Assembly: GCA_017619755.1 (NCBI GenBank)
Contig: JAFZRU010000025.1
Span: forward strand, 1-64,000
Length of the DNA stretch: 64,000 nucleotides
From: Prevotella sp.
GTDB lineage: Bacteria; Bacteroidota; Bacteroidia; Bacteroidales; Bacteroidaceae
Reading direction: 5' to 3'
The number at the start of each line of letters is the position of its first letter. Positions within the stretch are counted from its first letter, which is position 1. Below the pieces are notes generated by a model. The model did no database searches. It was not told the DNA's origin and saw only the letters and a list, made by a program, of their open reading frames with translations. A program made the position numbers and the translations under genes. Of this stretch, positions 4,481-61,623 are shown piece after piece.

Positions 4481-5119
4481 CTAATAGATGATTCTTCTTT
4501 CGTTGCCTCTTTCCCAGATGTTTTTTCTGTCAGCGGCGGCGAGACCACCAATGATGTCGGACGGCGGAGCGGGTCTGAAGTCCCCGTGTGCTCCTGTGGG
4601 GCAGTGTATGTTGGCGGTTCGTCTTCTCTCTTCGAGGAAGTCCTCTATTTTGGCATTTCTTCCTTTGATCTCCCCTTCTCTGGCAGCTGTGGCGAGGTCT
4701 TCATCGTAGTGCAGGGCGTGGAGGAGTTTTTTGATGGTTCTCTTGCCCATCTTCCCCTTTTCGATGTCCTTGGCGAGTGAGAGCACCAGGTTGGTGAAGG
4801 CTTTTCTCTCTTTCTCGTCCATATCGTCGTCGGCGAGGGCTTGGCAGGCTGATTCCGCTTGCTCGATGAAGGAGAGGGGAGGGGTCTCCGAAGGGTTTAA
4901 GGGGTTCAAGGGGTTTAAAGAGTTCAAGGGGTTTAAGGGCTCTGAGGGCTCTGAGGACTTTAAGGTCTCTAAGGACTTTAAGGTCTCTAAGGTCTCTAAG
5001 GACTTTAAGGTCTCTTGGGGCTCTGTGGTCTCTTGAGGCACTTGTGTTTCTTGGTTCTCGGGTGCTTCTTGTTGTGCGGTGGTGTTGTCCGCTTCTTGGC
5101 ATTGTTTTTCTTTTTCCAT
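4481..5119 (-). CDS. Hypothetical protein with a tandem-repeat insert
   Basis: A 212-residue protein of unknown function. Residues about 1-28 are Glu/Gln-rich; about 28-76 are a degenerate tripeptide repeat (LKSLET, LNPLNS types) encoded by a period-9 DNA array; the rest is a helical charged domain containing GRNAKIEDFLEERRR. Its place upstream of the terminase on the same strand would fit a small packaging accessory protein, but I see no DNA-binding motif and this is only a guess. The start at 5119 is set by the -7 box at 5144-5151, which rules out the upstream ATG at 5179. Confidence 0.55.
   Translation of the reverse strand: MEKEKQCQEADNTTAQQEAPENQETQVPQETTEPQETLKSLETLETLKSLETLKSSEPSEPLNPLNSLNPLNPLNPSETPPLSFIEQAESACQALADDDMDEKERKAFTNLVLSLAKDIEKGKMGKRTIKKLLHALHYDEDLATAAREGEIKGRNAKIEDFLEERRRTANIHCPTGAHGDFRPAPPSDIIGGLAAADRKNIWERGNERRIIY
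4893..5036. repeat. Period-9 array, family B (YTnnAR plus 3 nt), inside a gene
   Basis: About 16 tandem 9-nt units such as TTTAAGGGG, TTTAAGGTC and TCTAAGGAC. Nine is three codons, so the frame of the 4481-5119 gene is kept and the array is read as a tripeptide repeat. The same unit type occurs outside genes at 61522-61623. Confidence 0.75.
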
Positions 5120-5143
5120 ATCGATGATTTTTGATGTTCGTGG

Positions 5144-5151
5144 CAAAGGTA
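5144..5151 (-). promoter_or_regulatory. -7 box (TACCTTTG) for the 4481-5119 gene
   Basis: TACCTTTG on the minus strand lies 25 nt upstream of the ATG at 5119 and supports that start. The 292-bp gap 5120-5411 also holds a divergent promoter at 5355-5386 and nothing else that I recognise. Confidence 0.55.
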
Positions 5152-5354
5152 GTTCAAGAATGGATTTTGGACGTGTCATTTTGAGATGGATGCGCTTGTT
5201 TGTTCGTCAACTACGTATCTCACGTTGTTTTTCGTGGTTTTTGGGTTGTTGTGTTGAAATGGCCCGTGAACGGGAGGCGTTTTTATAAAGTTTTGATTAT
5301 GAGCGTTTTCCATTATCCGTTTTCATTATAGTTCTCAAAAATGGCAGGTAGGGC

Positions 5355-8324: not shown

Positions 8325-8357
8325 TTATAGTGGCTATAGTGACTATAGTTTCTATAG
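8325..8357. repeat. Period-9 array, family A (CTATAG plus 3 nt), short
   Basis: Four units: TTATAG, then CTATAG at 8334, 8343 and 8352, separated by TGG, TGA and TTT. CTATAG is self-complementary. The last unit supplies the TAG stop of copA (8352-8354 on the minus strand), so the array spans the whole copA-serB gap. Confidence 0.75.
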
Positions 8358-14056: not shown

Positions 14057-17000
14057 ATGAAACATTTACGATTACTGTTAACTTTTATGTCAGCCTGCGC
14101 TGTGACGATGGTCTCCGCCTCCAATTTCCTGGTGGAAGGCATTCGTTACAACGTGACGGACGCCACTGAGCAGACCGTCGAACTCACTGGCTGGGATAGA
14201 AATTATTTCAGCAACCTGAACAACCCCGTTGACCCCCCCGTGGGTAATAACGAAGAAGACGCCGACGGCCCGTCGGAGTTTGAAATCCCCTGGCGCGTGT
14301 TCTACAACGGTATCTACTACCGTGTCACAGGCATCGGCGAGGAGGCTTTCTCCGACTGCACGACGCTTAAGACCATCACCATTCCCAACTCTGTGGAGTC
14401 CATAGGTGAATACGCCTTCCAGGACTGCATCAACCTTCAGGTGGTGAAAGTACAGTGGATCAACCCTCTTCCCATCGATGAGAGTGTCTTTGCGGGGGTC
14501 AACTGCGAGGCAGCCACCCTTTATGTCCTCTCTGGCTATGCCGATGTTTACAAGGCAGCCGACGTGTGGAAGAATTTCGGCTCCATCAACATCTATTATG
14601 ACACCAATGTCAACATGTGGTTCAAGGATCCTCACGCCAAGTCCATCTGTGTGGCCAACTGGGACACCAATGGCGATGGAGAGTTGAGCTATCACGAGGC
14701 ACAAGCCGTTACCGACCTTGGTGCGGCATTCATGGATGACACGGAGTTGACGAGTTTCACGGAGCTCCGCTCTTTCAGCGGTCTCACCTCCATTAGCCCG
14801 TCCACTTTCAAGGGCTGCACCGCCCTCACGGAGGTCATCATCGCCAACAAGGTCACTTCCATTGGTCAGGAGGCCTTTGCCGGCTGTACCGCCTTGGAGA
14901 GTGTCACCTTCCAGCCCTCGGTGATATCCATTGGTCACTCCGCCTTTGCCGGCTGCAGTGCCTTGGGCAATTTCACGCTTCCCTCCAACCTTGTCACCAT
15001 CGGTGAGCATGCCTTCGACGGTTGCGCCAGCATCACCTCCGTCACCATTCCCTCCAAGGTGGCTTCCATTGGAGATGGAGCCTTTGCCAATTGCACCTCC
15101 AACACCTCTTTCACCGTCAATTCGAACAACAAGACCTTCGCCAATAGTTCGGGAAAGACCTATATCACCAACAAGTCTGACAAGAGTGTGTTGTATGCTT
15201 ACGCTTGCGGCGCATCCAATAAGACTGTCACTCTCAGCTCGACCGTTTTGGAGGTTCGTCCTTACGCCTTCCAAGGCGCACAGAACATCACCCAGCTCAC
15301 CTTGACCAATGTGGTGATTGTGGGCAACGACGCTTTCTCCGACTGCGCCAACCTCTACACCCTCTTCTTGCCTGAAACCCTTGCCAGCATCGGCACCAAT
15401 GCCTTCGCCGGCGTGGCCAAAGGCATACGCGTGGAGGTGAAATGGCCGTCGCCGCTTGAAATCAGCGACGGTACGTTCAGAAATTACGTGCCAGAGGATG
15501 CCGACGGTTTCACCGGTCGTCTCTTCGTGCCAGCCGGCACCCGTGCCGACTACGCCTCCGCCACCGGTTGGGATTGGTTCTACTTCATCCAGGAGGGTAC
15601 GATTGCCGACTACGCCAAGAAGATCATCACCTTTGCCGACGAGAAAACCCGTGAGATGTGCGTCACCGCCTTTGACAGTGACAACGACGGCTACCTCACC
15701 ACCGACGAGGCATCCGAAGTGTCCTCCATCGGCACCATCTTCCAGAATTCCGACATTGGCAGTTTCGCAGAGTTGAAATATTTCACCGGCCTCATCGCCA
15801 TTGATGACGACGCCTTCAACGGGAGCACGCTGTCTTCCGTCACCTTGCCCGAGAGCATTCTGACCATCGGCGACAACGCCTTCGCCAACTGTGTGAACCT
15901 CACCAAGTTCAATGTACCTGCAGCCGTGGAGTACATTGGCAACGGCGTGTTGGCCTCTTGCTCTTCTTTGAAGACCATCACGGTGAGCGCCGACAACGCT
16001 AATTACATCGGTGCAAGCAGTGGGTCGCTCTTCACCAAGGATCTTTCCATCATCCTACAGTTCCCGGCCAACAGCAACCTGACCTCCATCTATCTGCCCA
16101 ACGGTGTCAAGACCATTGCCCCGGAGGCTTTCAGGGGAGCTTCCAAGTTGAAGTCCATCAACCTTTCCACCACCGACATCACTTCCATTGGCTCGAAAGC
16201 CTTCTCCGGCTGTACGGGAATCAGCAGTTTCAAGGTGGGATGGGCCACCCCGCTCGAAGTGTCTGAAGACATCTTCGAGGGCGTTGACTTGGCCAATGAC
16301 ACTCTTTACGTGCCCAGCGGCATGGAGAACCTCTACCAAGCGGCTCCAGTGTGGAAGAAGTTCGGCGTCGTAGAGACCTTCAAGTCGTTTATCATCTTCC
16401 AAGACCCTGTGGTGGAGAGTATCTGCCTCGAAAAGTGGGATGCCAATGGCGACGGAAAGATGAGCTACAGCGAGGCCGCTGCCGTCACCACTTTGGACAA
16501 TGTCTTTGAGGGCAACACCCAGATTACCTCGTTTGAGGAACTCGCCGAGTTCTCCCTCACCGCCATCCCCGACAATGCTTTCAGGGGCTGCACCGCCTTG
16601 GCCAAGGTGAAGTTGCCCTCCAGGTTGACCACCATCGGCGCCGGTGCTTTCGAGGGTTGCTCCGTGTTAGGCAATGTCACCTTGACCGCTCCGCTGACCA
16701 CCATCGGCGACAAGGCATTCTATGGCTGTGACGCCATCACCGGTTTCAGCATCACCGAAAAAGTGGCAAACATCGGCAAGGGAGCCTTTGCCAATTGCAA
16801 ATCGCTCACAGGGTTCTACGTCGCTTCGAAAAACGCCCACTACCGTGCCATCAGCTACATCCTCTTCTCTCGCGACTCCACCACTGTGGTGCAGTTCCCC
16901 GCAGCTTTGAGCCGTTCCAATTTCGAGGTGTCGAGCAGCGTGTTCAAGAACATCGCCCCCTACGCCTTCAGCGGTGCCGTCAACCTCAAGACGGTTGTCT

Positions 17001-20000
17001 TCAACTCCGCCGAGACCATTGGTGAATACGCCTTTGAGAAATGCTTGAAACTCACCACCCTCACTATCGGCGATAACATCAAGACCATCGACGAGGGAGC
17101 CTTCTCCGATTGCTCCAACCTCTACACCATCGTCCTGCCCGCGACGCTGTCCAACATCGGCTCCGGTGCCTTCACCGGTTTGGCCAAGGGTGTCCGCGTG
17201 GAGGTGAACTGGCCCACACCGCTCAGCATCAGTGCCGGCACCTTCAGCAATAACGAGCCTTCATCCGACGGCGTCACCGGTCGCCTCTTCGTGCCGGCTG
17301 GCACACGTTACGACTACGCCTCCGCCACCGGTTGGGATTGGTTCAACTTCATCGAGGAAGGTACGATAGCCGACTACGCGCAGAAGATCATTACATTCGC
17401 TGACGAGAAGACCCGTGAGAAGTGCGTTGCCGCTTTCGACAGCGACAAGGATGGCTACCTCACCACCGACGAGGCCGCCGCTGTCACCTCCCTCGGCACC
17501 GTCTTCCGTGGCTCCGAGATTGGCAGTTTCGCCGAGCTGAAGTATTTCACCGGCCTCACCGCCATTGACAACAATGCCTTCGACGGCAGCACAGTATCGT
17601 CCGTCACCCTTCCCGAGAGTGTGACGACCATTGGTAACAACGCCTTTGCCAACTGCCCCAAGCTCACCACGTTTAACGTGACGGCGGGAGTGAAGAACAT
17701 CGGCAACGGCATCCTCGCCTCCTGCGCCGCCTTGAAGACCATCACCGTGAGTGAGGACAATCCTTATTTCATCGGTTCAAGCAGTGGAGCGCTCTTCACC
17801 AAGGATCGTTCCGTCATCTTGCAGTTCCCTGCCAACTGCTCCCTGACCACCATCTATCTGCCCGAAGGAGTGAATACTGTGGCTCCGGAGGCTTTCAGGG
17901 GTGCTACCAAACTCCAGTCCGTCAACCTTTCCGTAAGCGACATCACCTCCATTGGTGCGAAAGCCTTCTCCGGCTGCACGTCGCTCAACAATGTGAAAGT
18001 GGGATGGGCCACTCCGCTTGAGGTGTCGGCAGACATCTTCGAGGGCGTTGACTTGTCCAAAGCCACGCTCGAAGTGCCTGGCGGCGTAGAGGAACTCTAC
18101 CAAGCGGCTCCCGTGTGGAAGGATTTCGGCAATGTCGTGACTTTCAAGTCGTTCATCTTCTTCCAGGATCCCGAGGTGGAGAGCATCTGTGTCGCCAATT
18201 GGGATGCCAATGGCGATGGTAAGGTCAGTTATGAGGAGGCCGCTACTGTCACCTCTTTGGGCAACGTCTTCGAGGGCAACACCAAGATTACTTCGTTTGC
18301 TGAGTTGACAGAGTTCACCGCCATCACCTCCATCCCCGAAAAGGCTTTCAGTGGTTGTACATCCCTTACTAAGGTGACACTGCCCACCAAGATCACCAGC
18401 ATCGGTGCCTACGCTTTCGAGGGTTGCACCGTGTTGGGTAATGTCACCCTTCCCACCACGCTGACCTCCATCGGCTTCAAGGCCTTCTATGGTTGCGACG
18501 GCCTCACCGCCGCCACCATCCCTGCCAATGTGGTAAGCATCGGCAATGGCGCCTATGGCAGTTGCTCTTCGCTCAAGTCGTTCACCGTCAATTCGAAGAA
18601 TACCGCTTATCGTGCCATTGGCTACATCCTCTTCACCCGCGACTCCACCACTGTTGTGCAGTTCCCCGCCGGCATCAGCCGCACGACCTTCGAGGTGTCG
18701 AGCAGCGTGTTCAAGACCATCGCCCCCTACGCCTTCAGCGGTGCCGTCAACCTCAAGTCGGTTGTCTTCAATTCCGCAAGGACCATCGGCGAGCGTGCCT
18801 TTGAGAATTGTCTGGGTCTCACCACCCTCACCATTGGTGACAATATCACCACCATCGGCGAGAGTGCCTTCCGCGGTTGCCAGAACCTGCAGGCCATCAC
18901 GCTTCCCACCAATGTCGCCTCCATCGGCTCCAAGGCCTTCAACGGCATGCCTGCCGCAGTGAGGTGCCAGGTGTCGTGGACCACGCCTCCGGCCATCCCC
19001 GCCAACACCTTCTCCAACTTCGAGACGCTTTCGAACGGACAAGTGGCAGGCCTCCTCTTCGTGCCGAAGGGCAGCAAGACCGCCTACGAGGCCGCCACAG
19101 GTTGGGATTTCTTCACCATTGTCTATGAGGGCAACATGGCCGATTACGACGCCACGCTCATCAGCTTCGCCGACGCCACCGTCAAGCAGCTTGCCGTGGC
19201 CGCCTGGGACACCAATGGCGACAACCAGCTGAGCTATGATGAGGCAGCCGCCGTGAAGTCCATCGGTACCGTCTTCTCCGGCAAGCCCCTCACCACTTTC
19301 AACGAGTTGCAATATTTCACCGCTCTCACCGAGGTGAGCAACAACGCGTTCAAGAACACCGGCCTCACCGCCATCACCATGCCCGAGGGCATCACCCGCA
19401 TCGGTAACTCCGCCTTCCAAGGCACCGCCATCAGCAAGTGGAACACCCTCCCGGGCCTGAAGGAGATTGGCGACAGCGCTTTCGCCTACAACACCGGCTT
19501 CACCGCGCTCACCATCTCTGCCAACATCACCAAACTCGGCACCGGCGCCTTCAAGGGCTGTCCCAAGCTCACCTCCATAGGCGTGCAGACGGACAATCCC
19601 TATTACTCCGCTTCCGGCGGCGTGCTTTACAACAAAGAAGGCACCACCTTGCTGCAGTTCCCCGCTGCAAAGACCATCTCCGGCGACTATGTCATCAACA
19701 GTGCAGTGACCTCCATCGGCGAGGACGCCTTCCTCATGGTCAAGAACCTCACGTCGGTCAGCATCCCCGTCGGCGTCACCTCCATCGGGAAGAACGCCTT
19801 CCGTGGTTGCGCCGCCCTTGAGAACGTCACTGTGGAGTGGCACACCCCGCTCGCCGTGCCTGCCAACACCTTCGAGGGAGTTGACGTGGCCAACGCCACC
19901 CTCAACGTGCCAAAGGGCACCGAGGGTCTCTACCGTTCCGCCTCCGTATGGAAGGACTTCGGTATCCTCAAGACCTACCTTGACGACGTTGCCATACTCG

Positions 20001-21541
20001 ACTTCGAGGATCCCCTTGTCAAGTCCATCTGTGTGTCTCATTGGGACACCGACGGCGATGGTGAGCTCACCGTTGGCGAGGCGAAGGCCGTGACCAAACT
20101 GGCCACCTATTTCCGCGGCCAGGAAATCACCAAGTTCAACGAACTGCAATACTTCACCGGCCTCACCGCCATCACTTCGAGTGCCTTCAACGGTTGCGAG
20201 AAATTGGAGGAGGTGAAACTCCCCAACACCATCAAGGAGATTGCCTACGCCGCCTTCAACAGTTGCTCCAGTTTGAAGACCTTCGAAATCCCGGCTTCCG
20301 TGACGGTGATCAACACCAACGGCGCGTTCCCCAACTGCTCGTCGCTGCAGAGCTTCACCGTGGCAAGTGGCAACACCCGCTTCTGTGCTGTTGACGGCGT
20401 GCTATTCGACAACGCCCAAAGCACCCTCGTGGCCTATCCTGGCGGCAAGGCTGGCGAATACACGGTTCCCACCAGCGTCACCTCCATCCGCCTCTATGCC
20501 TTCTGCGGTGCGCCGAAACTCACCGAGTGCCACCTGCCGAAGACCATCAGGGCCATCCCGGAGGGCGCCTTCGACAAGTGCACCGGCCTCACCTACATCA
20601 ACATCCCCTCAACGGTGGAGAGCATCGGCAAGTTCGCATTCTACGAGTGCCCGTCCCTGCGCGTCATCAAGGTGGGAAAGAGCACCCCGCTTGGAATCAA
20701 CGGCAACGTGTTCCAAAACACCCTGACCGACGAGATTCGCCTTTACGTACCTGCTGGTTCGAAGTATGACTACATGGGTGCCGAGGTGTGGAACAATTTC
20801 GCTGAATACATCGAGTATCCCAACTGCGACGTCAACGCCGACGGCTTTGCCGACATGCTCGACGCCGTGGACATCCTCAAGTATGTCATCGGCACGCCGG
20901 TGGACACCTTCGACCCGTACCTTGCCGACTTCGACGACGACGAGTTTGTCACCGTGGGCGACGCTGTTGTCCTCGTGGGCAAGATTGCCGAGGGAGAGGC
21001 TGCACCCAACATCAATGCCGCCCCCGTGCACTTCACAGGCAGCGAGGAACTCACCCTCACTCGTTCCTCCAACGACGTGGTGTCATTCGGCATCAGCAGC
21101 CCCACCCGCTACACCGCCTTCCAGTTCGACCTCACCCTTCCGGAGGGAGCCGAGGTGGAGTTGGCACAGCTTAGCGAGCGCGCCACACGCGGTCACCAGC
21201 TGCTCTACAACAAGATTGGTGAGAACACCTACCGTTTCGCCTCCATCTCTTTCAACAACGCTCCCCTCAGCAAGGCCGAGGGCGCCGTGGTCAACATCCA
21301 GACCGCCTATTGCGGCTCCGACGAGGTAAAGGCAAGCAACATCAAGTTTGTCACCACCTCCGGCGTCATCCATACCTTTGACAACGTGGAGACCGCCATG
21401 CCCACCGGCATTGTGGAAATCGCCGCCCATGAGGGTGCTGCTTCCGTCAACGGAGCTTACTACAACCTCAACGGCGTCAAGGTGGAGCGTCCCGGAAAGG
21501 GCGTTTACATCGTCAACGGAAAGAAAGTAATCATCAAATAA
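14057..21541 (+). CDS. Giant BspA-like leucine-rich-repeat surface protein
   Basis: A 2494-residue exported protein. After a signal peptide come many LRR_5/BspA-type repeats (pattern IG..AF.GC..L..V.LP..). Seven EF-hand-like loops (DTNGDGELSYHEA type) interrupt them, starting at about residues 203, 540, 795, 1128, 1383, 1718 and 1997. The spacings (337, 255, 333, 255, 335, 279 residues) show that a two-part module of about 590 residues has been triplicated. Near the C-terminus are a dockerin-type pair (DVNADGFADMLDAVD, DFDDDEFVTVGDAVV), a cohesin-like domain and a sorting-type tail GVYIVNGKKVIIK. BspA proteins of oral Bacteroidetes bind fibronectin and fibrinogen; adhesion is the likely role. 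Confidence 0.88.
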   Translation: MKHLRLLLTFMSACAVTMVSASNFLVEGIRYNVTDATEQTVELTGWDRNYFSNLNNPVDPPVGNNEEDADGPSEFEIPWRVFYNGIYYRVTGIGEEAFSDCTTLKTITIPNSVESIGEYAFQDCINLQVVKVQWINPLPIDESVFAGVNCEAATLYVLSGYADVYKAADVWKNFGSINIYYDTNVNMWFKDPHAKSICVANWDTNGDGELSYHEAQAVTDLGAAFMDDTELTSFTELRSFSGLTSISPSTFKGCTALTEVIIANKVTSIGQEAFAGCTALESVTFQPSVISIGHSAFAGCSALGNFTLPSNLVTIGEHAFDGCASITSVTIPSKVASIGDGAFANCTSNTSFTVNSNNKTFANSSGKTYITNKSDKSVLYAYACGASNKTVTLSSTVLEVRPYAFQGAQNITQLTLTNVVIVGNDAFSDCANLYTLFLPETLASIGTNAFAGVAKGIRVEVKWPSPLEISDGTFRNYVPEDADGFTGRLFVPAGTRADYASATGWDWFYFIQEGTIADYAKKIITFADEKTREMCVTAFDSDNDGYLTTDEASEVSSIGTIFQNSDIGSFAELKYFTGLIAIDDDAFNGSTLSSVTLPESILTIGDNAFANCVNLTKFNVPAAVEYIGNGVLASCSSLKTITVSADNANYIGASSGSLFTKDLSIILQFPANSNLTSIYLPNGVKTIAPEAFRGASKLKSINLSTTDITSIGSKAFSGCTGISSFKVGWATPLEVSEDIFEGVDLANDTLYVPSGMENLYQAAPVWKKFGVVETFKSFIIFQDPVVESICLEKWDANGDGKMSYSEAAAVTTLDNVFEGNTQITSFEELAEFSLTAIPDNAFRGCTALAKVKLPSRLTTIGAGAFEGCSVLGNVTLTAPLTTIGDKAFYGCDAITGFSITEKVANIGKGAFANCKSLTGFYVASKNAHYRAISYILFSRDSTTVVQFPAALSRSNFEVSSSVFKNIAPYAFSGAVNLKTVVFNSAETIGEYAFEKCLKLTTLTIGDNIKTIDEGAFSDCSNLYTIVLPATLSNIGSGAFTGLAKGVRVEVNWPTPLSISAGTFSNNEPSSDGVTGRLFVPAGTRYDYASATGWDWFNFIEEGTIADYAQKIITFADEKTREKCVAAFDSDKDGYLTTDEAAAVTSLGTVFRGSEIGSFAELKYFTGLTAIDNNAFDGSTVSSVTLPESVTTIGNNAFANCPKLTTFNVTAGVKNIGNGILASCAALKTITVSEDNPYFIGSSSGALFTKDRSVILQFPANCSLTTIYLPEGVNTVAPEAFRGATKLQSVNLSVSDITSIGAKAFSGCTSLNNVKVGWATPLEVSADIFEGVDLSKATLEVPGGVEELYQAAPVWKDFGNVVTFKSFIFFQDPEVESICVANWDANGDGKVSYEEAATVTSLGNVFEGNTKITSFAELTEFTAITSIPEKAFSGCTSLTKVTLPTKITSIGAYAFEGCTVLGNVTLPTTLTSIGFKAFYGCDGLTAATIPANVVSIGNGAYGSCSSLKSFTVNSKNTAYRAIGYILFTRDSTTVVQFPAGISRTTFEVSSSVFKTIAPYAFSGAVNLKSVVFNSARTIGERAFENCLGLTTLTIGDNITTIGESAFRGCQNLQAITLPTNVASIGSKAFNGMPAAVRCQVSWTTPPAIPANTFSNFETLSNGQVAGLLFVPKGSKTAYEAATGWDFFTIVYEGNMADYDATLISFADATVKQLAVAAWDTNGDNQLSYDEAAAVKSIGTVFSGKPLTTFNELQYFTALTEVSNNAFKNTGLTAITMPEGITRIGNSAFQGTAISKWNTLPGLKEIGDSAFAYNTGFTALTISANITKLGTGAFKGCPKLTSIGVQTDNPYYSASGGVLYNKEGTTLLQFPAAKTISGDYVINSAVTSIGEDAFLMVKNLTSVSIPVGVTSIGKNAFRGCAALENVTVEWHTPLAVPANTFEGVDVANATLNVPKGTEGLYRSASVWKDFGILKTYLDDVAILDFEDPLVKSICVSHWDTDGDGELTVGEAKAVTKLATYFRGQEITKFNELQYFTGLTAITSSAFNGCEKLEEVKLPNTIKEIAYAAFNSCSSLKTFEIPASVTVINTNGAFPNCSSLQSFTVASGNTRFCAVDGVLFDNAQSTLVAYPGGKAGEYTVPTSVTSIRLYAFCGAPKLTECHLPKTIRAIPEGAFDKCTGLTYINIPSTVESIGKFAFYECPSLRVIKVGKSTPLGINGNVFQNTLTDEIRLYVPAGSKYDYMGAEVWNNFAEYIEYPNCDVNADGFADMLDAVDILKYVIGTPVDTFDPYLADFDDDEFVTVGDAVVLVGKIAEGEAAPNINAAPVHFTGSEELTLTRSSNDVVSFGISSPTRYTAFQFDLTLPEGAEVELAQLSERATRGHQLLYNKIGENTYRFASISFNNAPLSKAEGAVVNIQTAYCGSDEVKASNIKFVTTSGVIHTFDNVETAMPTGIVEIAAHEGAASVNGAYYNLNGVKVERPGKGVYIVNGKKVIIK

Positions 21542-21552
21542 CCATCGACACA

Positions 21553-22203
21553 ATGAATAAGAAAATCATATTCTTGGCCATGGCCCTCCTGTGCCTCGCC
21601 AATGTTACCAAGGCAGAGAATGTGGGCATTGATGATTTCACCATCAAGCAGGGCGAGACCATCCAGGTGGGCATCAAGCTCAGCAACACCCACACCAACC
21701 TCACGGCGTTCTCGATGACGCTGACGCTGCCCGAGGGTCTTACCCTCGTTGACGCCACGCCCACCGCAAGGTATGGTGGCTCCATCACCATAGGCATGCC
21801 CGACACAGACACCTACAACATCTGCGGCATCTGGATGAATGGCAACAGCCTCGGTGCCATCAGCGGCTTCTCCGGCAACCTGCTCATCCTCACCCTTGCC
21901 GCCAGCATCGACTTCGATGGCGGTACGGGTACGCTCACCGATGTTGATTTCATCACCATCGACCGCCAGCATGTCAGGCCCGCCGACATCTCCTTCACCG
22001 TTCAATACGAGCGAGCCTCCGACCTTTTCATCGGAGATGCCAACATGGATGGTGAGATTGACGTGTCGGATGTCATGACGGTGGTCAACAAGAGTCTCGG
22101 CAAGGAGGTCACACCCTTCAACATGGGCAATGCCGACACCAATGAGGACGGCATCATCGACGTCATCGACGTCATGAACATTGTCTATCTCGTGCTGCAT
22201 TGA
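21553..22203 (+). CDS. Secreted cohesin-like/dockerin-like protein
   Basis: A 216-residue exported protein built like the one at 11961: a signal peptide (MNKKIIFLAMALLCLANVTKA), a cohesin-like beta domain (about 22-150), then two Ca-binding dockerin repeats (GDANMDGEIDVSDVMTVV and NADTNEDGIIDVIDVMNIV). It lies only 11 nt after the giant protein, so it is co-transcribed with it. A strong terminator follows directly. A structural partner role for the giant protein is plausible, but untested. Confidence 0.75.
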   Translation: MNKKIIFLAMALLCLANVTKAENVGIDDFTIKQGETIQVGIKLSNTHTNLTAFSMTLTLPEGLTLVDATPTARYGGSITIGMPDTDTYNICGIWMNGNSLGAISGFSGNLLILTLAASIDFDGGTGTLTDVDFITIDRQHVRPADISFTVQYERASDLFIGDANMDGEIDVSDVMTVVNKSLGKEVTPFNMGNADTNEDGIIDVIDVMNIVYLVLH

Positions 22204-22226
22204 TTTTGGCACGACGACATTATATA

Positions 22227-22262
22227 AAAACTCCCGCCACGAAAATGGCGGGAGTTTTTTTT
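22227..22262 (+). terminator. Intrinsic terminator of the secreted-protein operon
   Basis: AAAACTCCCGCCA (22227-22239) pairs with TGGCGGGAGTTTT (22246-22258) around the loop CGAAAA, and a run of eight T follows the GC-rich stem. It separates the surface-protein operon from the capsid operon. Confidence 0.9.
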
Positions 22263-22273
22263 AGGGGTGATGA

Positions 22274-22320
22274 CGAAATAACGGAATAACGTGATAACGA
22301 AATACGGAATAACGTCATCA
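22274..22320. repeat. Period-8 array, family D (CGNNATNN), copy 1
   Basis: Six units (CGAAATAA, CGGAATAA, CGTGATAA, a 7-nt CGAAATA, CGGAATAA, CGTCATCA). The array is bounded by the inverted 9-mers GTGATGACG (22267-22275) and CGTCATCAC (22313-22321). It lies between the operon terminator and the capsid promoter. Confidence 0.75.
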
Positions 22321-22369: not shown

Positions 22370-22428
22370 CACCCGGATTGTAAAACTTGCACTCCTTTTA
22401 TTATCAACATCCAAAAAACAAAGAAAAC

Positions 22429-23898
22429 ATGAGAAAAGCCAAGAGACTGAAGGAACTCCTTCCCCTCGCCTTGCGAGGAATGGCCCTCGCCGCTGCCGGT
22501 ATGGACGCCGGCATGTTGATGGCCGCCGCCGCCGACCTTCCCGACGCCGGCAAGACCCGTGGAGGCAACGAACGCTACAAAGGCACCACGGAGCCACACG
22601 ACACCGCCGGGGCAGCACCCCTCAACCCCACCAACCCCGAGGGCATCTTCACCGAGAGTTACTCACGCATCGACGGTGACGCCGAGATGTACCAGAAGGA
22701 CATCGACGAGCGCATCACCCGCATCCGCCCCATGGCGACCCCCATCGACCAGATTTCGCGGTACGCCAACGCCCAACGAGCCAAGTCGTTTGAGGTGAAA
22801 TACTACAGCGTCGGCACCCGCCCTGTGAAAACCAAGCTCACCGCCGCCGTCACCGCGTCGAGCAACGTCTCCACCGCCATCCAGGTGGCCGACCCCGACA
22901 TGTTCACCCTCGACGACACCATCCGCGTCGTCGGCGTGAAAGCCCTCTTCAACTACAAGGGAACCGCCTACAACGCCCACGCCGCCTCCACCCCCGACCT
23001 CGTGCTTTGCGTCTGTGGCAAAACCTCCAGCGGCCAACCCATCGTCTATGCCGTCAACGGTTCCATGGTCAACGACCAACCTATCGGCCTGCCAGCCATC
23101 AGCAACAACACCACGCTCATCCGCATGGGCAAGTCGTGCGGAGAACTTGACGTGCAGACCGGCCGTTTCAACAACATCCCCACCTCCGAGTTGCAGTACT
23201 GCCAGAACTTCATGGCGCAGATCGAGCAGTCCACCCTCGACAAGATTGCTGCCAAGGAGGTCAACTGGGGCTTCTCCGACTTGGAGGAGGACAGCATCTA
23301 CGACATGCGCCTCGCCATGGAAAACTCCTTCCTCTTCGGGGACATGAACGTCATCAACCACAGCGTGAAGGATGGCATGTCGCAATGGTTCACCAAGGGC
23401 ATCTGGTGGCAGGCCGGCAAGGACATCGAGGTGGGCGCCTTCGACAGCACCAAGCAAACCACCGTCATCACCGACAACGACCTGGTGGACATCTCCAAGG
23501 ACCTCTTCGTTGGCACCGGCATCGGCAACAAGCGCAAGGTGCTGCTCTGCGGCAGCGACTTCCTCGCCGCCCTCTCCAAAATCGACAGCGACAAGTTCCG
23601 CCTGAAGGACACCGTGGAAATCTGGAACCTCAAGTTCAAGTCGTGGGAGACCGACTTCGGTGAGATTCTCGCCATGCACGACGAACTCTTCGACCTCAAC
23701 GGCATGTCCGACTGCGCCTTCGCCCTCGACCCCGAGTTCCTTACCAAGAAGACCTATCTCAGTTGGAGCCGCAACATCCTCGACCTGAAGAAGGCCGGCG
23801 TGCGCAACACCGATGCCGTCGTCATCCAGGAAATCAGCTGCCTCTATCTCCGCTACCGCAAGGCCCACGCCCGTCTGCAACTGGCACAGCCCGAGTGA
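22429..23898 (+). CDS. Probable phage major capsid protein
   Basis: A 489-residue protein heading a run of phage-type structural genes. After a basic N-terminus it contains ATPIDQISRYANAQRAKSFE and the C-terminal half GDFGEILAMHDELFDL-type region with a conserved ISCLYLRYRKAHARL end, a layout typical of tailed-phage capsid proteins in the HK97/SU10-like group. I could not confirm the fold. The start at 22429 follows the promoter and an A-rich leader. No protease or scaffold gene precedes it. The next gene begins 17 nt downstream. Confidence 0.62.
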   Translation: MRKAKRLKELLPLALRGMALAAAGMDAGMLMAAAADLPDAGKTRGGNERYKGTTEPHDTAGAAPLNPTNPEGIFTESYSRIDGDAEMYQKDIDERITRIRPMATPIDQISRYANAQRAKSFEVKYYSVGTRPVKTKLTAAVTASSNVSTAIQVADPDMFTLDDTIRVVGVKALFNYKGTAYNAHAASTPDLVLCVCGKTSSGQPIVYAVNGSMVNDQPIGLPAISNNTTLIRMGKSCGELDVQTGRFNNIPTSELQYCQNFMAQIEQSTLDKIAAKEVNWGFSDLEEDSIYDMRLAMENSFLFGDMNVINHSVKDGMSQWFTKGIWWQAGKDIEVGAFDSTKQTTVITDNDLVDISKDLFVGTGIGNKRKVLLCGSDFLAALSKIDSDKFRLKDTVEIWNLKFKSWETDFGEILAMHDELFDLNGMSDCAFALDPEFLTKKTYLSWSRNILDLKKAGVRNTDAVVIQEISCLYLRYRKAHARLQLAQPE

Positions 23899-28994: not shown

Positions 28995-29054
28995 TCTAGA
29001 TTATCTAGATGGTCTAGATTTTCTAGATGCTCTAGATGCTCTAGATTTTCTAGG
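28995..29054. repeat. Period-9 array, family C (TCTAGA plus 3 nt)
   Basis: Seven units start every 9 nt from 28995: six perfect self-complementary TCTAGA hexamers and a final TCTAGG, with spacers TTA, TGG, TTT, TGC, TGC and TTT. It fills the gap between the fibre gene and the next gene. Confidence 0.85.
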
Positions 29055-29077
29055 ATTTAATATTTCTCTCAAAGACC

Positions 29078-29650
29078 ATGAAAAAGATTTTCCTTTCTAT
29101 CAAAAAGCCTGTGACGCTGCGCGAGGTGGCGATGCTCACCGCCTACATCGGCGTGAAGCATGCCGATGTGGCGGAGCATTTTGAGCGGTTGGCCGTGGTG
29201 AAGGCCGATGCCCCTTTGCTCGAAACCTTCTGGCGTGACACCTGCACCAAGGCCGACCACGCCTTTCAGGAATACTTGCAAGGCGAATCATCTTCTCCCC
29301 CAGGGACGCAGGACGAACCTTCTTCTCCCCATACCCCTCCCCACAGCGATGCCCTCCGCCCTCACGATGATGACTATCACGCTCGCCTCGCCCTTCCTGA
29401 CAACTGGGACGACGGCCAACGCCGGACATTGGAGGGCGCCCTTCACGCCTTCTTTGTGCACCATGTCGTGGCTCGGTGGCTCGACATCGTTATGCCCGAG
29501 GCGGAAAACCTCCATGCCACAAAGGCCGAAGAACAACTGACCCTGCTGAAAAACGCGCTCGAAAAGAGAAAAAGGGCTCCCAGGCCAGATGCTCCAGGGG
29601 GACGGGATTTCGGGATAGCGGGATTTCGGGATGACGGGATGACGGGATGA
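29078..29650 (+). CDS. Hypothetical protein of the phage-type cluster
   Basis: A 190-residue protein starting MKKIFLSIKKPVTLREVAML. Residues 1-70 are helical, about 70-95 a Ser/Pro-rich linker, and 105-175 helical with charged ends (ALHAFFVHHVVARWLDIVM). The last 16 residues (GRDFGIAGFRDDGMTG) and the TGA stop are encoded by a period-8 repeat array, so the present C-terminus was probably created by array growth into the gene. Position suggests a phage accessory protein. I recognise no family. Confidence 0.5.
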   Translation: MKKIFLSIKKPVTLREVAMLTAYIGVKHADVAEHFERLAVVKADAPLLETFWRDTCTKADHAFQEYLQGESSSPPGTQDEPSSPHTPPHSDALRPHDDDYHARLALPDNWDDGQRRTLEGALHAFFVHHVVARWLDIVMPEAENLHATKAEEQLTLLKNALEKRKRAPRPDAPGGRDFGIAGFRDDGMTG

Positions 29651-29706
29651 CGGGATGACGGGATTTCGGAATAACGGAATAACGAAATAACGGAATAACG
29701 AAATAA
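29603..29706. repeat. Period-8 array, family D (CGNNATNN), copy 2
   Basis: Thirteen uninterrupted 8-nt units: CGGGATTT and CGGGATGA types, then CGGAATAA and CGAAATAA types. CG and AT keep positions 1-2 and 5-6 in every unit. The array covers the last 16 codons and the stop of the 29078 gene and most of the gap to 29736. Confidence 0.9.
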
Positions 29707-30259: not shown

Positions 30260-31459
30260 ATGACATCAATCAAGATCAAGTTCAGACCTTCCATGGTGGA
30301 AGGCAAGGAAGGTGGCATATACTTCCAAATCATCCATAATCGTGTAGTCCGTCAGTTGAGCACGGACTACAAACTTTTTGCCAATGAATGGGATACAGAA
30401 GCAGAAGCCATCATTTTCAATGATGAGCGTTTCAACACCTTGTGCAGCATCGATGAACGCTTGAAATGGGACACCTCCCGAATGGAAAAAGTCATCAGGC
30501 AATTGGATGCCGACAGGGGCAGATACTCGGCTGACGACGTCATCAACGCATTCTCCAGGATGAAGAAAGATGTCTCTCTGTTTTCATTCATGCATGGTGT
30601 CATAGCCCAACTGAAACAGTTGGGCAGGGTCAGGACGTCGGAAACCTATACCGCCACGTTGAAAAGTTTCATGGCTTTCCGTGAAGACATCGACGTGCCG
30701 CTCGACGGCATCACCTCCGACCTGATGCTCCTGTATGAGGCCTATCTGAAAACGAGGGGAGTGCGCATGAACACCATATCGTTCTATATGCGCATTCTCC
30801 GGGCGGTCTATAACCGTGCCGTGGAGAAAGGACTGACACCACAGAACAAACCCTTCCGTCATGTCTATACGGGAATAGACAAGACGGTCAAGCGGGCCAT
30901 ACCCATCAAGGCTCTCAAGGCATTGAAGGATTTGGACTTGTCCATGAAGCCGGCGTTGGACTTTGCCCGTGATATGTTCCTCTTCAGTTTCTACACAAGG
31001 GGTATGTCTTTCGTGGATATGGCTTACCTCAAAAAGAAGGACCTTCGAAACGGTATCCTGACCTATCGCAGACGAAAGACGGGGCAGCAACTGACCATCA
31101 AGTGGGAGAAATGCATGGAGGAGATTGTCGCCAAATATCCTGACAACCCCACGGCTTACATGCTGCCCATCATCAAGGAAAAGGAGAACGAGCGAAGGCA
31201 ATATGACAATGCCCTGCATTTGGTCAATTACCATTTGAAAGACCTTTCGGAGATGCTCAAACTCCAGCGTCCTTTGACTATGTATGTGGCTCGTCACTCC
31301 TGGGCGAGTGCCGCAAAGGCAAAGAATGTACCCCTGTCAGTCATCAGCGAGGGCATGGGGCATGATTCAGAGGTGACGACGCAAATCTACCTCGCCTCCT
31401 TGGAAACGTCGGTGGTGGATAAGGCAAACAGGATGATATTGGGATTGCTGTCGAAGTAG
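30260..31459 (+). CDS. Tyrosine recombinase (Bacteroidetes phage/transposon integrase)
   Basis: A 399-residue site-specific integrase. Residues 1-95 form the arm-binding domain and 105-200 the SAM-like core-binding domain. The catalytic domain has Arg247 (FYTRGMSFVDMAYL), Lys273, Arg345 in YVARHSWA, His368 in GMGHDSEVTTQIY, and the nucleophile Tyr377. All catalytic positions appear present; Tyr instead of His before the second Arg is common in this subfamily. It lies between the capsid cluster and the restriction island and could have mobilised either. No attachment-site repeat was identified. Confidence 0.88.
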   Translation: MTSIKIKFRPSMVEGKEGGIYFQIIHNRVVRQLSTDYKLFANEWDTEAEAIIFNDERFNTLCSIDERLKWDTSRMEKVIRQLDADRGRYSADDVINAFSRMKKDVSLFSFMHGVIAQLKQLGRVRTSETYTATLKSFMAFREDIDVPLDGITSDLMLLYEAYLKTRGVRMNTISFYMRILRAVYNRAVEKGLTPQNKPFRHVYTGIDKTVKRAIPIKALKALKDLDLSMKPALDFARDMFLFSFYTRGMSFVDMAYLKKKDLRNGILTYRRRKTGQQLTIKWEKCMEEIVAKYPDNPTAYMLPIIKEKENERRQYDNALHLVNYHLKDLSEMLKLQRPLTMYVARHSWASAAKAKNVPLSVISEGMGHDSEVTTQIYLASLETSVVDKANRMILGLLSK

Positions 31460-48143: not shown

Positions 48144-49766
48144 ATGAAAAGACATGTATTTTTCCTGTTGGTTTTTGCCCTCCCTCTCCTGTCATCGGCG
48201 CAGGAGTTGGCGGATTTCAACGTCGTGCCGAAACCTCGTCAGTGCGTGGAGCAGAAAGGCGGGCCTTTCGCCCTCTCGTCGCTCGCCGCCATCGTCTATG
48301 AAGGGGGTGATGAGATGCGCCGCAATGCCTCTTTCCTTGCCGAATACATCGGCGAGGTGGTGGGCAAGGAACCTCCAGTGCGCTCTTCCAAGGTGCGGGG
48401 GAGTGCCATCACCTTGCGCCTGAACAAGAAGATGACGGGCGAGGAGGCCTACCGCATCAGCGTGAACCAGAAGGGGGTTGTCATCGAGGGCGCCACGCCG
48501 CAGGGGGTCTTCCGTGGTGTGCAGACATTCCGAAAGGCGCTGCCGGTGCATGCCGCCGGCGAGGTGCTGGTGCCGGCGGTGGTGGTGGACGATGAGCCAC
48601 GTTTCGCCTACCGGGGGATGCACCTCGACGTGAGCCGGCATTTCTTCGACATGGACTTCGTCAGGCAGTACATCGACATGCTGGCCCTCCACCACATCAA
48701 CGTCTTCCATTTCCACCTCACCGACGACCAGGGGTGGCGGGTGGAAATCAAGAAATACCCGAAACTCACGGAGGTGGGGGCCTGGAGGAATCGCACGGTG
48801 GTGGGCCGCAACACGGGGCTATACTATTGGCAGCGCCATGGAGGTTATTTCACGCAGGATCAGATACGCGACATCGTGGACTATGCGGCGCGGCGTTACA
48901 TCACCGTGGTGCCGGAAATCGACATGCCGGGACACATGGTGGCGGCTCTCGCGGCATACCCGGAATTGGGTTGCACCGGCGGCCCTTACGAGGTGGAGCC
49001 TAACTGGGGGGTGTTCGATGACATCCTCTGCGCTGGAAAGGAGAAGACGTTTGAGTTCGTCGAGGGGGTGCTGGAGGAACTTGTTGGACTCTTCCCGGCG
49101 GAGTATTTCCACATCGGGGGCGACGAGGCTCCGCGCACGCGATGGAAGGAGTGTGCCCTCTGCCAGCAATGCATCCAACAAGAGGGACTCAAGGGCGACG
49201 GGGAGCACTCGGCGGAGGACCGCCTGCAAGGGTATTTTATGAAAAGGGTGGAGCGCTTCCTCAACAGCAAGGGGAAGAAGGTCATCGGTTGGGATGAGTT
49301 GCTCGACTGCGACGTCAACCCATCCACCACCATCATGAGCTGGAGGGGCGTGGAAGGAGGAATGACGGCCTCTGCAAAGGGGCACGACGTCATCATGGTG
49401 CCCACCTCATGGTTTTATTTCGACTACTACCAGACAAATGAGGAGGATTGGGTGAAGCCTTTCCTCATTGGCGGATATGTTCCTTTGGAGAAGGTGTATT
49501 CCTTCGAGCCGGCTCCCGACACGCTCACGCCGGAGCAGCGGGCGCACATCATCGGCCTCCAAGCCAACCTGTGGACGGAATACATCTATGCCAAGGAACT
49601 CGCAGAATATCAGGTGCTCCCCAGAATGGGTGCCTTGTCAGAGCTCCAGTGGATGCTCCCAGAGCAAAAAAACTATGAGGAGTATAAGGCAAGGCAAAAA
49701 AGGCTCAACACGATTTACGAGGCAAAGGGATGGAAATATTGCAAGGAGGAATTTAAAAAAGAATGA
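48144..49766 (+). CDS. Beta-N-acetylhexosaminidase (GH20)
   Basis: A 540-residue exported glycosidase removing terminal N-acetylglucosamine or N-acetylgalactosamine, likely in host glycan or peptidoglycan use. A signal peptide MKRHVFFLLVFALPLLSSAQ is followed by a GH20b domain (about 25-145) and the TIM-barrel catalytic domain with FHLTDDQGWRVEI and the Asp-Glu pair in HIGGDEAPR near residue 322. The start at 48144 gives the best signal peptide; another ATG four codons earlier is possible. It is in line with the S24 gene, but I see no functional link. A D-type repeat array starts right after it. Confidence 0.93.
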   Translation: MKRHVFFLLVFALPLLSSAQELADFNVVPKPRQCVEQKGGPFALSSLAAIVYEGGDEMRRNASFLAEYIGEVVGKEPPVRSSKVRGSAITLRLNKKMTGEEAYRISVNQKGVVIEGATPQGVFRGVQTFRKALPVHAAGEVLVPAVVVDDEPRFAYRGMHLDVSRHFFDMDFVRQYIDMLALHHINVFHFHLTDDQGWRVEIKKYPKLTEVGAWRNRTVVGRNTGLYYWQRHGGYFTQDQIRDIVDYAARRYITVVPEIDMPGHMVAALAAYPELGCTGGPYEVEPNWGVFDDILCAGKEKTFEFVEGVLEELVGLFPAEYFHIGGDEAPRTRWKECALCQQCIQQEGLKGDGEHSAEDRLQGYFMKRVERFLNSKGKKVIGWDELLDCDVNPSTTIMSWRGVEGGMTASAKGHDVIMVPTSWFYFDYYQTNEEDWVKPFLIGGYVPLEKVYSFEPAPDTLTPEQRAHIIGLQANLWTEYIYAKELAEYQVLPRMGALSELQWMLPEQKNYEEYKARQKRLNTIYEAKGWKYCKEEFKKE

Positions 49767-49772
49767 TGGCGG

Positions 49773-49916
49773 CGTTATGACGTTATCCCGTTATGACGTT
49801 ATTCCGTTATAACGTGATTCCGTCATTCCGGGATTCCGTGATAACGTTATTCCGTTATTCCGAGATGACGTTATTTCGGGATTCCGGGATGACGTTATTT
49901 CGAGTTTTCGTCATTG
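49773..49916. repeat. Period-8 array, family D (CGNNATNN), copy 3
   Basis: Eighteen units of exactly 8 nt, for example CGTTATGA, CGTTATCC, CGTGATTC and CGAGATGA. All but one (CGAGTTTT) keep CG at positions 1-2 and AT at 5-6. The array runs into the 3' end of the four-helix-bundle gene and supplies its TAA stop. Confidence 0.92.
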
Positions 49917-50650
49917 ATGTTTCTCGTTCCTCGGCATTCTGGATATGCTGAGCAGCTCCAGAATTCTTTGCCGGAGTTGATGCCTTTTTTGGCCATGCGT
50001 TTGAGCATGGGCTTGCCGCAGACGGGGCAGGAGGGAGCGTTGTTTTCCTTGCTCTGCTCCTGGCGATAGCTGAGACGCACGGCAGTGAGGCCTTCAGTGA
50101 AGCCCCCTTCCTGCTTGAAGGCCTCCATCTGGGCTTCTATCTGCTTGCCAAGCATCATGACAAGCCTGTTGCATAGCACGATGATGCATTGTGCCATCGT
50201 GATGGAATTGTCCTTTTCCAGCCATGGGTCAAAATGATGCTTCTGTCTCAGAATATGGATGCAGCTGTTATATTGGACGTCATCTTGGTAGGTGGGTTTT
50301 TCAAGAGGGATGGCAGCCACTTGACGGTATTCTTGCGACAAAGACGACCAGGGAAGTTGCTCTTGTCGCAGCAGCCAGTTGAGATAGTCGTTGGTTAGTT
50401 CGGCGAGTGTGGCTCGTGCCACATCTGTCAATCGCATTTCTGTCTCACGAGAAGTAGATTGGCGAGAATTGCCTTCAGCTATGTTTGCAGGGGCCGAGCG
50501 GGCTGCCTGTGTCATCTGGTCATAAAGCCGTCCGCAAGGGTCGTTGGTGTGGTTCAGATAGCGTGAACAGAATTCTTGCGTAGCAAGCTGAATGACATTT
50601 GCAAGAACCCATGTGTCCAGCCAATAATATCCGAACCTTTTTATTTTCAT
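49895..50650 (-). CDS. Four-helix-bundle protein with suffix domain and zinc ribbon
   Basis: A 251-residue protein. Residues about 8-125 form a four-helix bundle of the 23S rRNA intervening-sequence/bAvd type (ARSAPANIAEGNSR is characteristic). A suffix domain (about 130-195) follows, and a topoisomerase-type zinc ribbon CPVCGKPML..CSAYPECRG sits at about 208-240. Bundles of this type bind nucleic acids or reverse transcriptases; the ribbon also suggests nucleic-acid contact. Period-8 arrays lie at both ends, and the final codons NDENSK plus stop are array DNA. No reverse transcriptase is nearby. The exact role is unknown. Confidence 0.8.
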   Translation of the reverse strand: MKIKRFGYYWLDTWVLANVIQLATQEFCSRYLNHTNDPCGRLYDQMTQAARSAPANIAEGNSRQSTSRETEMRLTDVARATLAELTNDYLNWLLRQEQLPWSSLSQEYRQVAAIPLEKPTYQDDVQYNSCIHILRQKHHFDPWLEKDNSITMAQCIIVLCNRLVMMLGKQIEAQMEAFKQEGGFTEGLTAVRLSYRQEQSKENNAPSCPVCGKPMLKRMAKKGINSGKEFWSCSAYPECRGTRNINDENSK

Positions 50651-50673
50651 GTTTTTTTGTTTTTTTGTTGTTT

Positions 50674-50769
50674 CGTTATTTCGGGATTTCGTTATTCCGG
50701 GTTTTCGTTATGACGTTATCCCGTTATAACGTTATTCCGGGATTCTGTGATTCCGATGCCTCGTCATTC
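50674..50769. repeat. Period-8 array, family D (CGNNATNN), copy 4
   Basis: Twelve 8-nt units (CGTTATTT, CGGGATTT, CGTTATAA and so on), with two degenerate units near the end. It lies directly upstream of the four-helix-bundle gene and reaches into the polysaccharide deacetylase gene, whose TGA stop is part of the last unit CGTCATTC. Confidence 0.88.
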
Positions 50770-51375
50770 AAAAACCTTGAAAGCATAGCCTTGCTCGCGA
50801 AGCCATCTGAGGGACGCGGGCAAGGCTATGTGGAGTTTGTCGATGCTTTTGAGGGAGTCGTGGAAGGTGATGATGGAACCGTTGCGCGTGTATGTCATGA
50901 CATTCTCCACCACGTCGCTTGCTGTCATGTGGCGGGAATAGTCGCGGGTGACGAGGTCCCACATGATAATCTTGTATTTTTTGCGGAGCCAGTAGTATTC
51001 GGCGGGAGTCATCCACCCGTGGGGCGGGCGGAAGAGGTGGGCGCCTATCAGTTGGTTGGCTTTCTCCGTGTTGTCGATGTAAGTTTTGGTGAGATGCTTC
51101 AGCCCTCCGAGATGGTTGAAGGTGTGGTTGCCCACTTGATGCCCCTCCTCCACCACTTGCTGGTGGAGGTGGGGGTATTTGCGCACGTTGTCGCCTACCA
51201 TGAAGAAGGTGGCTTTGACTTCAAAGTCGCGCAGGGTCTTCAGGATGAACGGCGTCGCCTCGGGGATGGGTCCGTCGTCGAAGGTGAGATACACCGCCCG
51301 CTCGTGCTTGTCCATCCGCCACAGTGCGCGTGGGAACATCCATCTTAGCCAGAAAGAGGGTTGCTCAAGGATCAT
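50764..51375 (-). CDS. Polysaccharide deacetylase (NodB family)
   Basis: A 203-residue metal-dependent deacetylase of N-acetylated sugars (CE4-type). Conserved TFDDGP (Asp33-Asp34) and HTFNH (His84, His88) supply the catalytic base and metal ligands, and the C-terminal part has a weaker ITFHDS. It begins 9 nt after the stop of the GT117 gene on the minus strand, so it is translated from the same message. There is no signal peptide; the N-terminus has a mildly hydrophobic segment (FWLRWMFPRALW). The stop lies in a period-8 repeat. Confidence 0.88.
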   Translation of the reverse strand: MILEQPSFWLRWMFPRALWRMDKHERAVYLTFDDGPIPEATPFILKTLRDFEVKATFFMVGDNVRKYPHLHQQVVEEGHQVGNHTFNHLGGLKHLTKTYIDNTEKANQLIGAHLFRPPHGWMTPAEYYWLRKKYKIIMWDLVTRDYSRHMTASDVVENVMTYTRNGSIITFHDSLKSIDKLHIALPASLRWLREQGYAFKVFE

Positions 51376-57480: not shown

Positions 57481-57495
57481 CTTTTTTCTTTTTTT

Positions 57496-57573
57496 TTATA
57501 GTGGCTATAGTTTCTATAGAGGCTATAGTTTCTATAGTAGCTATAGTATCTATAGTTTCCATAGTGGCTATAG
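57496..57573. repeat. Period-9 array, family A (CTATAG plus 3 nt), long
   Basis: Nine hexamers start every 9 nt from 57496 (TTATAG, then CTATAG at 57505, 57514 and so on, one CCATAG), with variable 3-nt spacers. It fills the gap between the DPP IV-like gene and purD, upstream of the purD start. Confidence 0.9.
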
Positions 57574-61509: not shown

Positions 61510-61521
61510 ATGATTTTTGTC

Positions 61522-61623
61522 CTTAATGACCCTAAAGTCCTTAAAGTCGTTAAAGTCTTTAAGGTCTTTAAAGTCCCTAAAGTCCTTAAAGACTTTTTTC
61601 ATGTCTTTAAAGTCCTTAAAGTC
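61522..61623. repeat. Period-9 array, family B (YTTAAR plus 3 nt), intergenic
   Basis: Eight consecutive 9-nt units (CTTAAAGTC, TTTAAGGTC, CCTAAAGTC types) from 61522 to 61593, a T-rich break, then two more. The broken part also allows an inverted pairing (TTAAAGAC/GTCTTTAA). Confidence 0.88.

Follow-up and report, generated by a model that had tools for sequence, protein, structure and literature searches.

In REP/RAYT systems, many short intergenic repeats per genome go together with one associated protein, and RAYT genes are flanked by REPs. REPs are described as palindromes of 20–40 bp and the RAYT protein as a tyrosine transposase. Cyanobacterial STRR heptamers are comparable tandem repeats. 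A different system is found in the 23S intervening sequences (S23/IVP), where a gene of a four-helix-bundle family lies inside a 23S rRNA gene within complementary borders. According to PMC4990558, the Coxiella intervening sequence with the family gene forms a stem cut by RNase III, tandem GACAGAT heptamers of strain-variable number stand directly before the S23 start, and the Xanthomonas family protein is a pentamer. The family has also been reported in cas loci (PMC3936711), and Avd of diversity-generating retroelements is said to be similar to PF05635 in both its sequence and its structure (PMC10053308). Intergenic tandem heptamers with a patchy distribution and a proposed protein-binding role are known as the TAACTGA direct repeats of Beggiatoaceae, Cyanobacteria and five Bacteroidetes; the candidate binders that PMC4679880 puts forward are S1, Csp and Csr rather than the product of a repeat-flanked gene. 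Among the open-licence papers listed by our searches, we found none that links the four-helix family to tandem arrays or describes arrays of the kind presented here.

We analysed a 64,000-nucleotide stretch of the genome of a Prevotella sp., hereafter the window, in which a gene of the four-helix family (gene B) stands between two tandem arrays of an octamer. As with REPs, the repeats both flank a partner gene and occur scattered over the genome. However, they form arrays of 7–10 bp units with variable spacers, and gene B encodes a four-helix bundle without a Y1 transposase match, so that the array-gene-array unit may be seen as resembling REP/RAYT by analogy while probably being unrelated to it. 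Gene B belongs to the same protein family as the S23/IVP genes, which likewise have complementary borders. S23/IVP genes reside inside 23S rRNA genes, whereas gene B has protein genes as neighbours and arrays on either side; the family proteins of this genus also exceed S23/IVP proteins in length. Because the locus lies between a GH20 and a polysaccharide deacetylase gene, we rejected gene B as a 23S rRNA intervening sequence. The arrays share with TAACTGA repeats their intergenic tandem arrangement, their patchy distribution and a proposed role in protein binding, but the TAACTGA units are exact heptamers.

Tandem arrays in the window and in other genomes

An earlier note on this DNA had pointed to four places with 8-nt units in which CG and AT are fixed, and all four proved to be arrays of the word CGNNATNN, with perfect runs of 3–16 units:

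22274..22320, no strand assigned: CGNNATNN array of 4 + 2 units, no family gene adjoining
29603..29706, no strand assigned: CGNNATNN array of 13 perfect units, no family gene adjoining
49773..49916, no strand assigned: CGNNATNN array downstream of gene B, containing the stop codon of B
50674..50769, no strand assigned: CGNNATNN array upstream of gene B, containing the stop codon of gene C

The first array consists of a perfect run at 22274–22305 (4 units), a one-base phase slip and 2 further units to 22320. The third has 16 perfect units at 49773–49900 and continues as a chain to 49916 with one broken unit, CG and AT being intact in 17 of its 18 units. The fourth contains perfect runs at 50674–50697 (3 units) and 50706–50745 (5 units) and is degenerate past 50745. 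Such arrays are hardly expected by chance: the window shuffled by an order-1 Markov model gave, per shuffle, 0.94 runs of at least two units and 0.01 of at least three, and the three-unit pattern has 92 matches in the whole Prevotella sp. genome, compared with none for the reversed control. The pattern occurs in 42 of 100 same-genus genomes (own genome included), the control having no match in any of them. Public contigs with a four-unit run, among the matches listed, come mostly from Prevotella, Prevotellaceae, Bacteroidaceae and Bacteroidales, many of them from the rumen, and some from other phyla. Matches in Streptomyces, Proteus and other phyla, whose units are often identical, were set aside as unrelated.

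With arrays delimited by Tandem Repeats Finder spans, which do not require CG or AT, the CG/AT columns of the three longer window arrays are 89–100% one base, and all 12 spacer columns are only 40–75% one base, as the earlier note had anticipated; in the short array at 22273 (3–4 units), two of the four spacer columns are invariant. The spacers are variable but not free, since a C directly after CG is rare, with 6 cases among 704 perfect units of the window and related loci, a count that omits 27 loci, mostly from other phyla. Neutral replication slippage, with family genes lying in such regions by coincidence, could be considered here, because simple repeats expand in this way and several kinds of array coexist in the own genome. 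Fixed cores next to varying spacers in the three longer arrays argue against slippage, and together with the gene-association evidence given below they make it highly improbable.

The ORF ends at 29650, 49895 and 50764 all fall within units, as had been noticed before, and the array at 29603–29706 overlaps the end of ORF 29078–29650. These stop codons within arrays look incidental. The array at 22274 lies before an ORF starting near 22387–22429. In two relatives (G201 and G063), the same gap contains no CGNNATNN; it has a YTTAARGWC-type array in G201 and a diverged stretch in G063, which suggests, from the sequence comparison, that arrays may turn over at this gap. Directly before this array, at about 22226–22262, a GC hairpin and a T run resemble a terminator, and a similar hairpin is present at the same gap in both relatives. 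In the region 14057–22203, the window encodes a BspA-type leucine-rich-repeat protein of 2494 aa that has a dockerin match, and after it another dockerin protein. Close downstream of the 29603 array is a tyrosine-recombinase/integrase-like gene at 30293–31459 (PF13102, PF17293, PF00589).

The window also contains arrays of other words:

8326..8357, no strand assigned: short CTATAGNNN array
28995..29058, no strand assigned: TCTAGANNN array, period 9, the word also flanking family genes in other genomes
57493..57573, no strand assigned: CTATAGNNN array, period 9, the word also flanking family genes in other genomes
61519..61623, no strand assigned: YTTAARGWC array, period 9, similar words flanking one group of family genes

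Other stretches of the own genome carry CTCCTATNNN, a word of period 10. Triples of TCTAGANNN occur in 27 of 100 same-genus genomes, with 35 in the own genome and 172, plus one reversed-control match, in G009. In G006 all five TCTAGANNN matches adjoin the family gene itself, for which reason a co-occurrence test with this word was dropped. A GACCTTAAAG-type period-9 array at 4893–5033 lies inside the coding region of ORF 4481–5179 (minus strand) with the frame kept; its translation would give a short repeated peptide.

Gene B between genes A and C

The span 49773–50769 is an array-gene-array unit around gene B, with genes A and C as outer neighbours:

48144..49766, plus strand: gene A, GH20 glycoside hydrolase, outer neighbour of B
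49895..50650, minus strand: gene B, 251 aa four-helix-bundle protein with a C-terminal C4 zinc ribbon (PF01396)
50764..51375, minus strand: gene C, polysaccharide deacetylase, outer neighbour of B

The only Pfam and NCBIfam models that gene B matches above cut-off are those for the four-helix bundle and the zinc ribbon. It scores 48.2 bits against TIGR04258 (cut-off 40) and 31.2 against TIGR02436 (cut-off 24), is above the cut-off for PF01396, and lies just under the cut-off of PF05635 (31.1, cut-off 33.8). All of 40 aligned family members match both TIGR models (E <= 0.01) and 39 of them match PF05635 (E <= 0.001). The only solved relative found by sequence is 2GSC, with a profile match of E 2e-6; the predicted structure of B itself is poor, with a mean pLDDT of 47.

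A DNA search of 398 genomes gave 30 loci, the window itself being one of them, and both A and C are present in 14 of the relatives' loci that were fetched. The two genes are adjacent, 12–323 bp apart, in 11 of these 14, and 909–1082 bp apart, with other sequence between them, in the remaining three (L214, L217, L227). The A–C gaps of all 14 contain no match to B and not even two consecutive CGNNATNN units; in G036, one of the genomes concerned, an orthologue of B is located elsewhere. The joint lack of B and its arrays in relatives speaks against the arrays being only regulatory sites of the gene. It also bears on the idea that arrays are pre-existing insertion hot spots for any mobile gene, with a word that the protein does not read. 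Arrays often lack a family gene, and an array of a different word, four CGTCCGACN units, is found in the A–C gap without B of one relative (L210, genome G239), both of which would suit hot spots. However, none of the 14 B-less gaps has a CGNNATNN run for B to enter, and it is protein relatedness, not the locus, that predicts the word (see below). We regard such hot spots as improbable.

Relatives of B at other places do have such arrays. The homologues in G097, G382 and G360 stand between two CGNNATNN arrays, and a period-8 array adjoins, at one flank or both, the orthologues of 67–75% identity in ten same-genus genomes (L232–L241); its word has diverged in L239, it is weak in L240, and one flank in L235 is a contig end.

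Concordance of array word and family protein

Searching 100 same-genus genomes with the B protein gave 112 places in 56 of them; 108 were fetched (four fragment rows being omitted) and 107 counted after a 613 aa ORF (L341, E 2.7e-4) was dropped. An array was called flanking if it passed a fixed threshold and lay within 250 bp of the gene, and genes of 400–1200 bp served as controls. Arrays are present on at least one side of 81 of the 107 family genes, compared with 49 of 276 controls (p 2.5e-26), and on both sides of 17 family genes and 5 controls (p 1.0e-6). The control genes with an array number 19 of 152 in the own genome, 20 of 64 in G097, 10 of 32 in G059 and G063 together, and none of 28 in G003 and G024, two genomes without CGNNATNN matches. 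As the controls include stretches chosen for their arrays and possibly gene B itself, the comparison of 81/107 with 49/276 is conservative. The scarcity of flanking arrays at control genes further disfavours slippage. Counting against our main reading, 26 of the 107 family genes lack a flanking array at the threshold used.

The words differ by family group and include TCTAGANNN, CTATAGNNN, ATAAGCCCN, TAAAGACCN, TGGGAGTTC and CCTACNAAA, among others. Close relatives of B at other places carry CGNNATNN-type arrays, and paralogues carry TCTAGANNN, CTATAGNNN, CTCCTATNNN and more. The second family gene of the own genome (C5:34080, L261) has CTCCTATNNN units, the word of own-genome arrays at C28:11699, C28:121062 and C5:40437; downstream of this gene, the word occurs in both orientations and thereby forms a large inverted repeat. 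The two flanks of one gene resemble each other (k-mer similarity 0.61, compared with 0.12 between genes, n=16), and the own partner flank is the best match for 11 of the 16 genes. Among 76 genes that have both an array and an intact protein, array similarity between a gene and its nearest protein in another genome is 0.47 (null 0.096). It is still 0.40 for the same number of genes once partners whose neighbour genes are homologous have been excluded (null 0.096, sd 0.018; 0 of 2000 permutations), and 24 of the 76 pairs reach a similarity of 0.5. A similarity of 0.40 at unrelated loci indicates that the word tracks the protein more than the place, which neither slippage nor hot spots would predict.

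The CGNNATNN arrays away from B also tend to accompany the protein. They are found in all 12 genomes with a close relative of B (at least 66% identity; the copy in G055 is broken), compared with 30 of 88 others (p 1.1e-5; Mann–Whitney p 1.7e-6). The 30 genomes with arrays and no close relative count against our main reading; one of them, G059, has 76 matches in a genome that is about 99% complete. Likewise, genomes with distant full-length relatives of 55, 48 and 47% identity (G058, G086 and G071) have 0, 0 and 1 matches, which also counts against it; one of these distant relatives (L243) has another word. For TCTAGA-, CTATAG- and TTAA-type arrays of the own genome, no matching family gene was found among the two family genes detected in this 86% complete assembly. 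Finally, none of 118 public array loci (up to 8 kb) searched with eight queries contained a family gene, a further result against our main reading.

The claim that the flanking arrays act as transposon-style inverted ends was rejected for this genus, since in the 19 genes whose flanks are both periodic, the orientation is direct for 14, inverted for 3 and undecided for 2. These direct flanks, and the frequent position of arrays near the start or stop of family genes, would agree with autoregulation only, in which the protein regulates its own gene through the arrays, the scattered arrays being sites of its regulon, with no mobility involved. In addition to the A–C locus, where B and its arrays are missing together, two observations argue against it: the corresponding gap of G201 and G063 shows no counterpart of the 22274 array, and arrays of a single, nearly palindromic word were scattered, in a small test, over all gap types with 5 sense and 6 antisense readings (below). 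We therefore find it rather unlikely that autoregulation alone explains the arrays.

Beyond the genus, PF05635 matches were obtained from 157 genomes in a phylum-wide sample of 198. Among 30 canonical members fetched, a recognisable motif was found in 26, and 10 of those have a period-7 to -11 array, nearly all of period 7 or 8. A periodicity test on 58 flanks and 20 control flanks gave a weak signal, with p 0.02–0.05 at the two lowest thresholds and no difference at higher ones, which also counts against our main reading. In 29 usable members, loci that are not fully independent because some look orthologous to one another, the flanks resemble each other in inverted orientation (0.237, compared with 0.137; 0 of 5000 permutations) and less so in direct orientation (0.128, compared with 0.108; 38 of 5000 permutations), 16 of the 29 being clearly inverted and 3 clearly direct. 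The Coxiella heptamers would fit a pairing of array and gene by analogy, though PMC4990558 does not interpret them in this way. A viral contig carries a four-helix family gene at L372:2971–3564 with degenerate GTCGGAC-type repeats just upstream.

RNA folding, and the proposed recognition and mobility

The inverted canonical flanks (16 inverted and 3 direct of 29) and the RNase III-cut stem that PMC4990558 reports for the Coxiella intervening sequence with its family gene are what one might expect if transcribed arrays were long hairpins that end, protect or process mRNAs. Nine array folds, from seven stretches, two of them on both strands, do beat dinucleotide shuffles (z −2.9 to −10.1). When the spacers were permuted with the cores fixed, however, the mean z was −0.03 in 80 tests of 40 arrays, the longest of 43, some of them from overlapping loci of one genome, after L068, L100 and L134 had been dropped; 6% of the tests fell below −2 and some were strongly positive. 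Folding is thus not weakened on average by spacer permutation, which indicates that mainly the cores are kept. Single arrays stand out, among them the window array at 29603, which beats its own spacer permutations (z −3.24 on the plus strand). Hairpins with covarying spacers were rejected as a general explanation, in view of strong folding without an average spacer effect.

Position relative to genes was analysed for another word, not CGNNATNN, at 40 loci (30 in G069, 7 in G006 and 3 in G072), 3 of which lie at contig ends and 2 inside called genes. The remaining 35 arrays fall into 22 co-directional, 9 divergent and 4 convergent gaps. Among the 22 co-directional arrays, 11 are read on one strand (5 sense, 6 antisense) and 11 on both, the latter because the tested word is nearly palindromic. 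This small test of a near-palindromic word showed no preference for gap type or orientation, and a gene-end or terminator role was rejected on this basis; the previously suggested stop-codon or mRNA-end role thus found no support. An RNA-structure element, comparable to the 23S intervening sequences, is in our judgement quite unlikely. The lack of both a spacer effect and a strand preference leans instead to recognition by the cognate protein, with either double-stranded DNA or a word readable on both strands as its target.

The earlier proposal of selection for a binding or structural pattern rather than slippage is therefore divided: recognition fits the data, and RNA pairing of the spacers is unsupported overall. 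The strongest support for recognition is that the word recurs beside close relatives of B elsewhere, while paralogues carry other words. We consider it likely that each array word serves one four-helix protein as its cognate site, and that the gene and its two arrays together form a mobile unit which leaves arrays without the gene behind. Each kind of array might then be the set of recognition sites for one TIGR02436/TIGR04258/PF05635 protein, the core letters (here CG..AT) being contacted by the protein and the spacers not being read in detail. The protein might form a ring-shaped oligomer with perhaps one unit per subunit, an attractive arrangement because the 2GSC protein is reported as a pentamer. 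The gene would be gained and lost together with its flanking arrays at intergenic sites, and gene-less arrays might be non-autonomous derivatives or target sites that have spread and lengthened over time. We infer physical binding, DNA as the ligand, the oligomeric state and dispersal driven by the protein from these genomic patterns; the family has no known catalytic domain, which counts against the protein as the mover of the DNA.

More broadly, and with considerable reservation, the four-helix (23S_rRNA_IVP-like) family could be a large class of mobile array-bounded genes for ring proteins, each with its own tandem word, the pairing of protein and word constituting a diversified recognition code that seeds cognate arrays. 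With these findings, a widespread protein family of unknown function, matched in 157 of 198 genomes, gains a partner and a role that can be tested. They also offer a possible explanation for short intergenic tandem repeats that earlier work had noted but not linked to a partner. Should the pairing amount to a recognition code, an alignment of protein-word pairs could reveal which residues read which bases.
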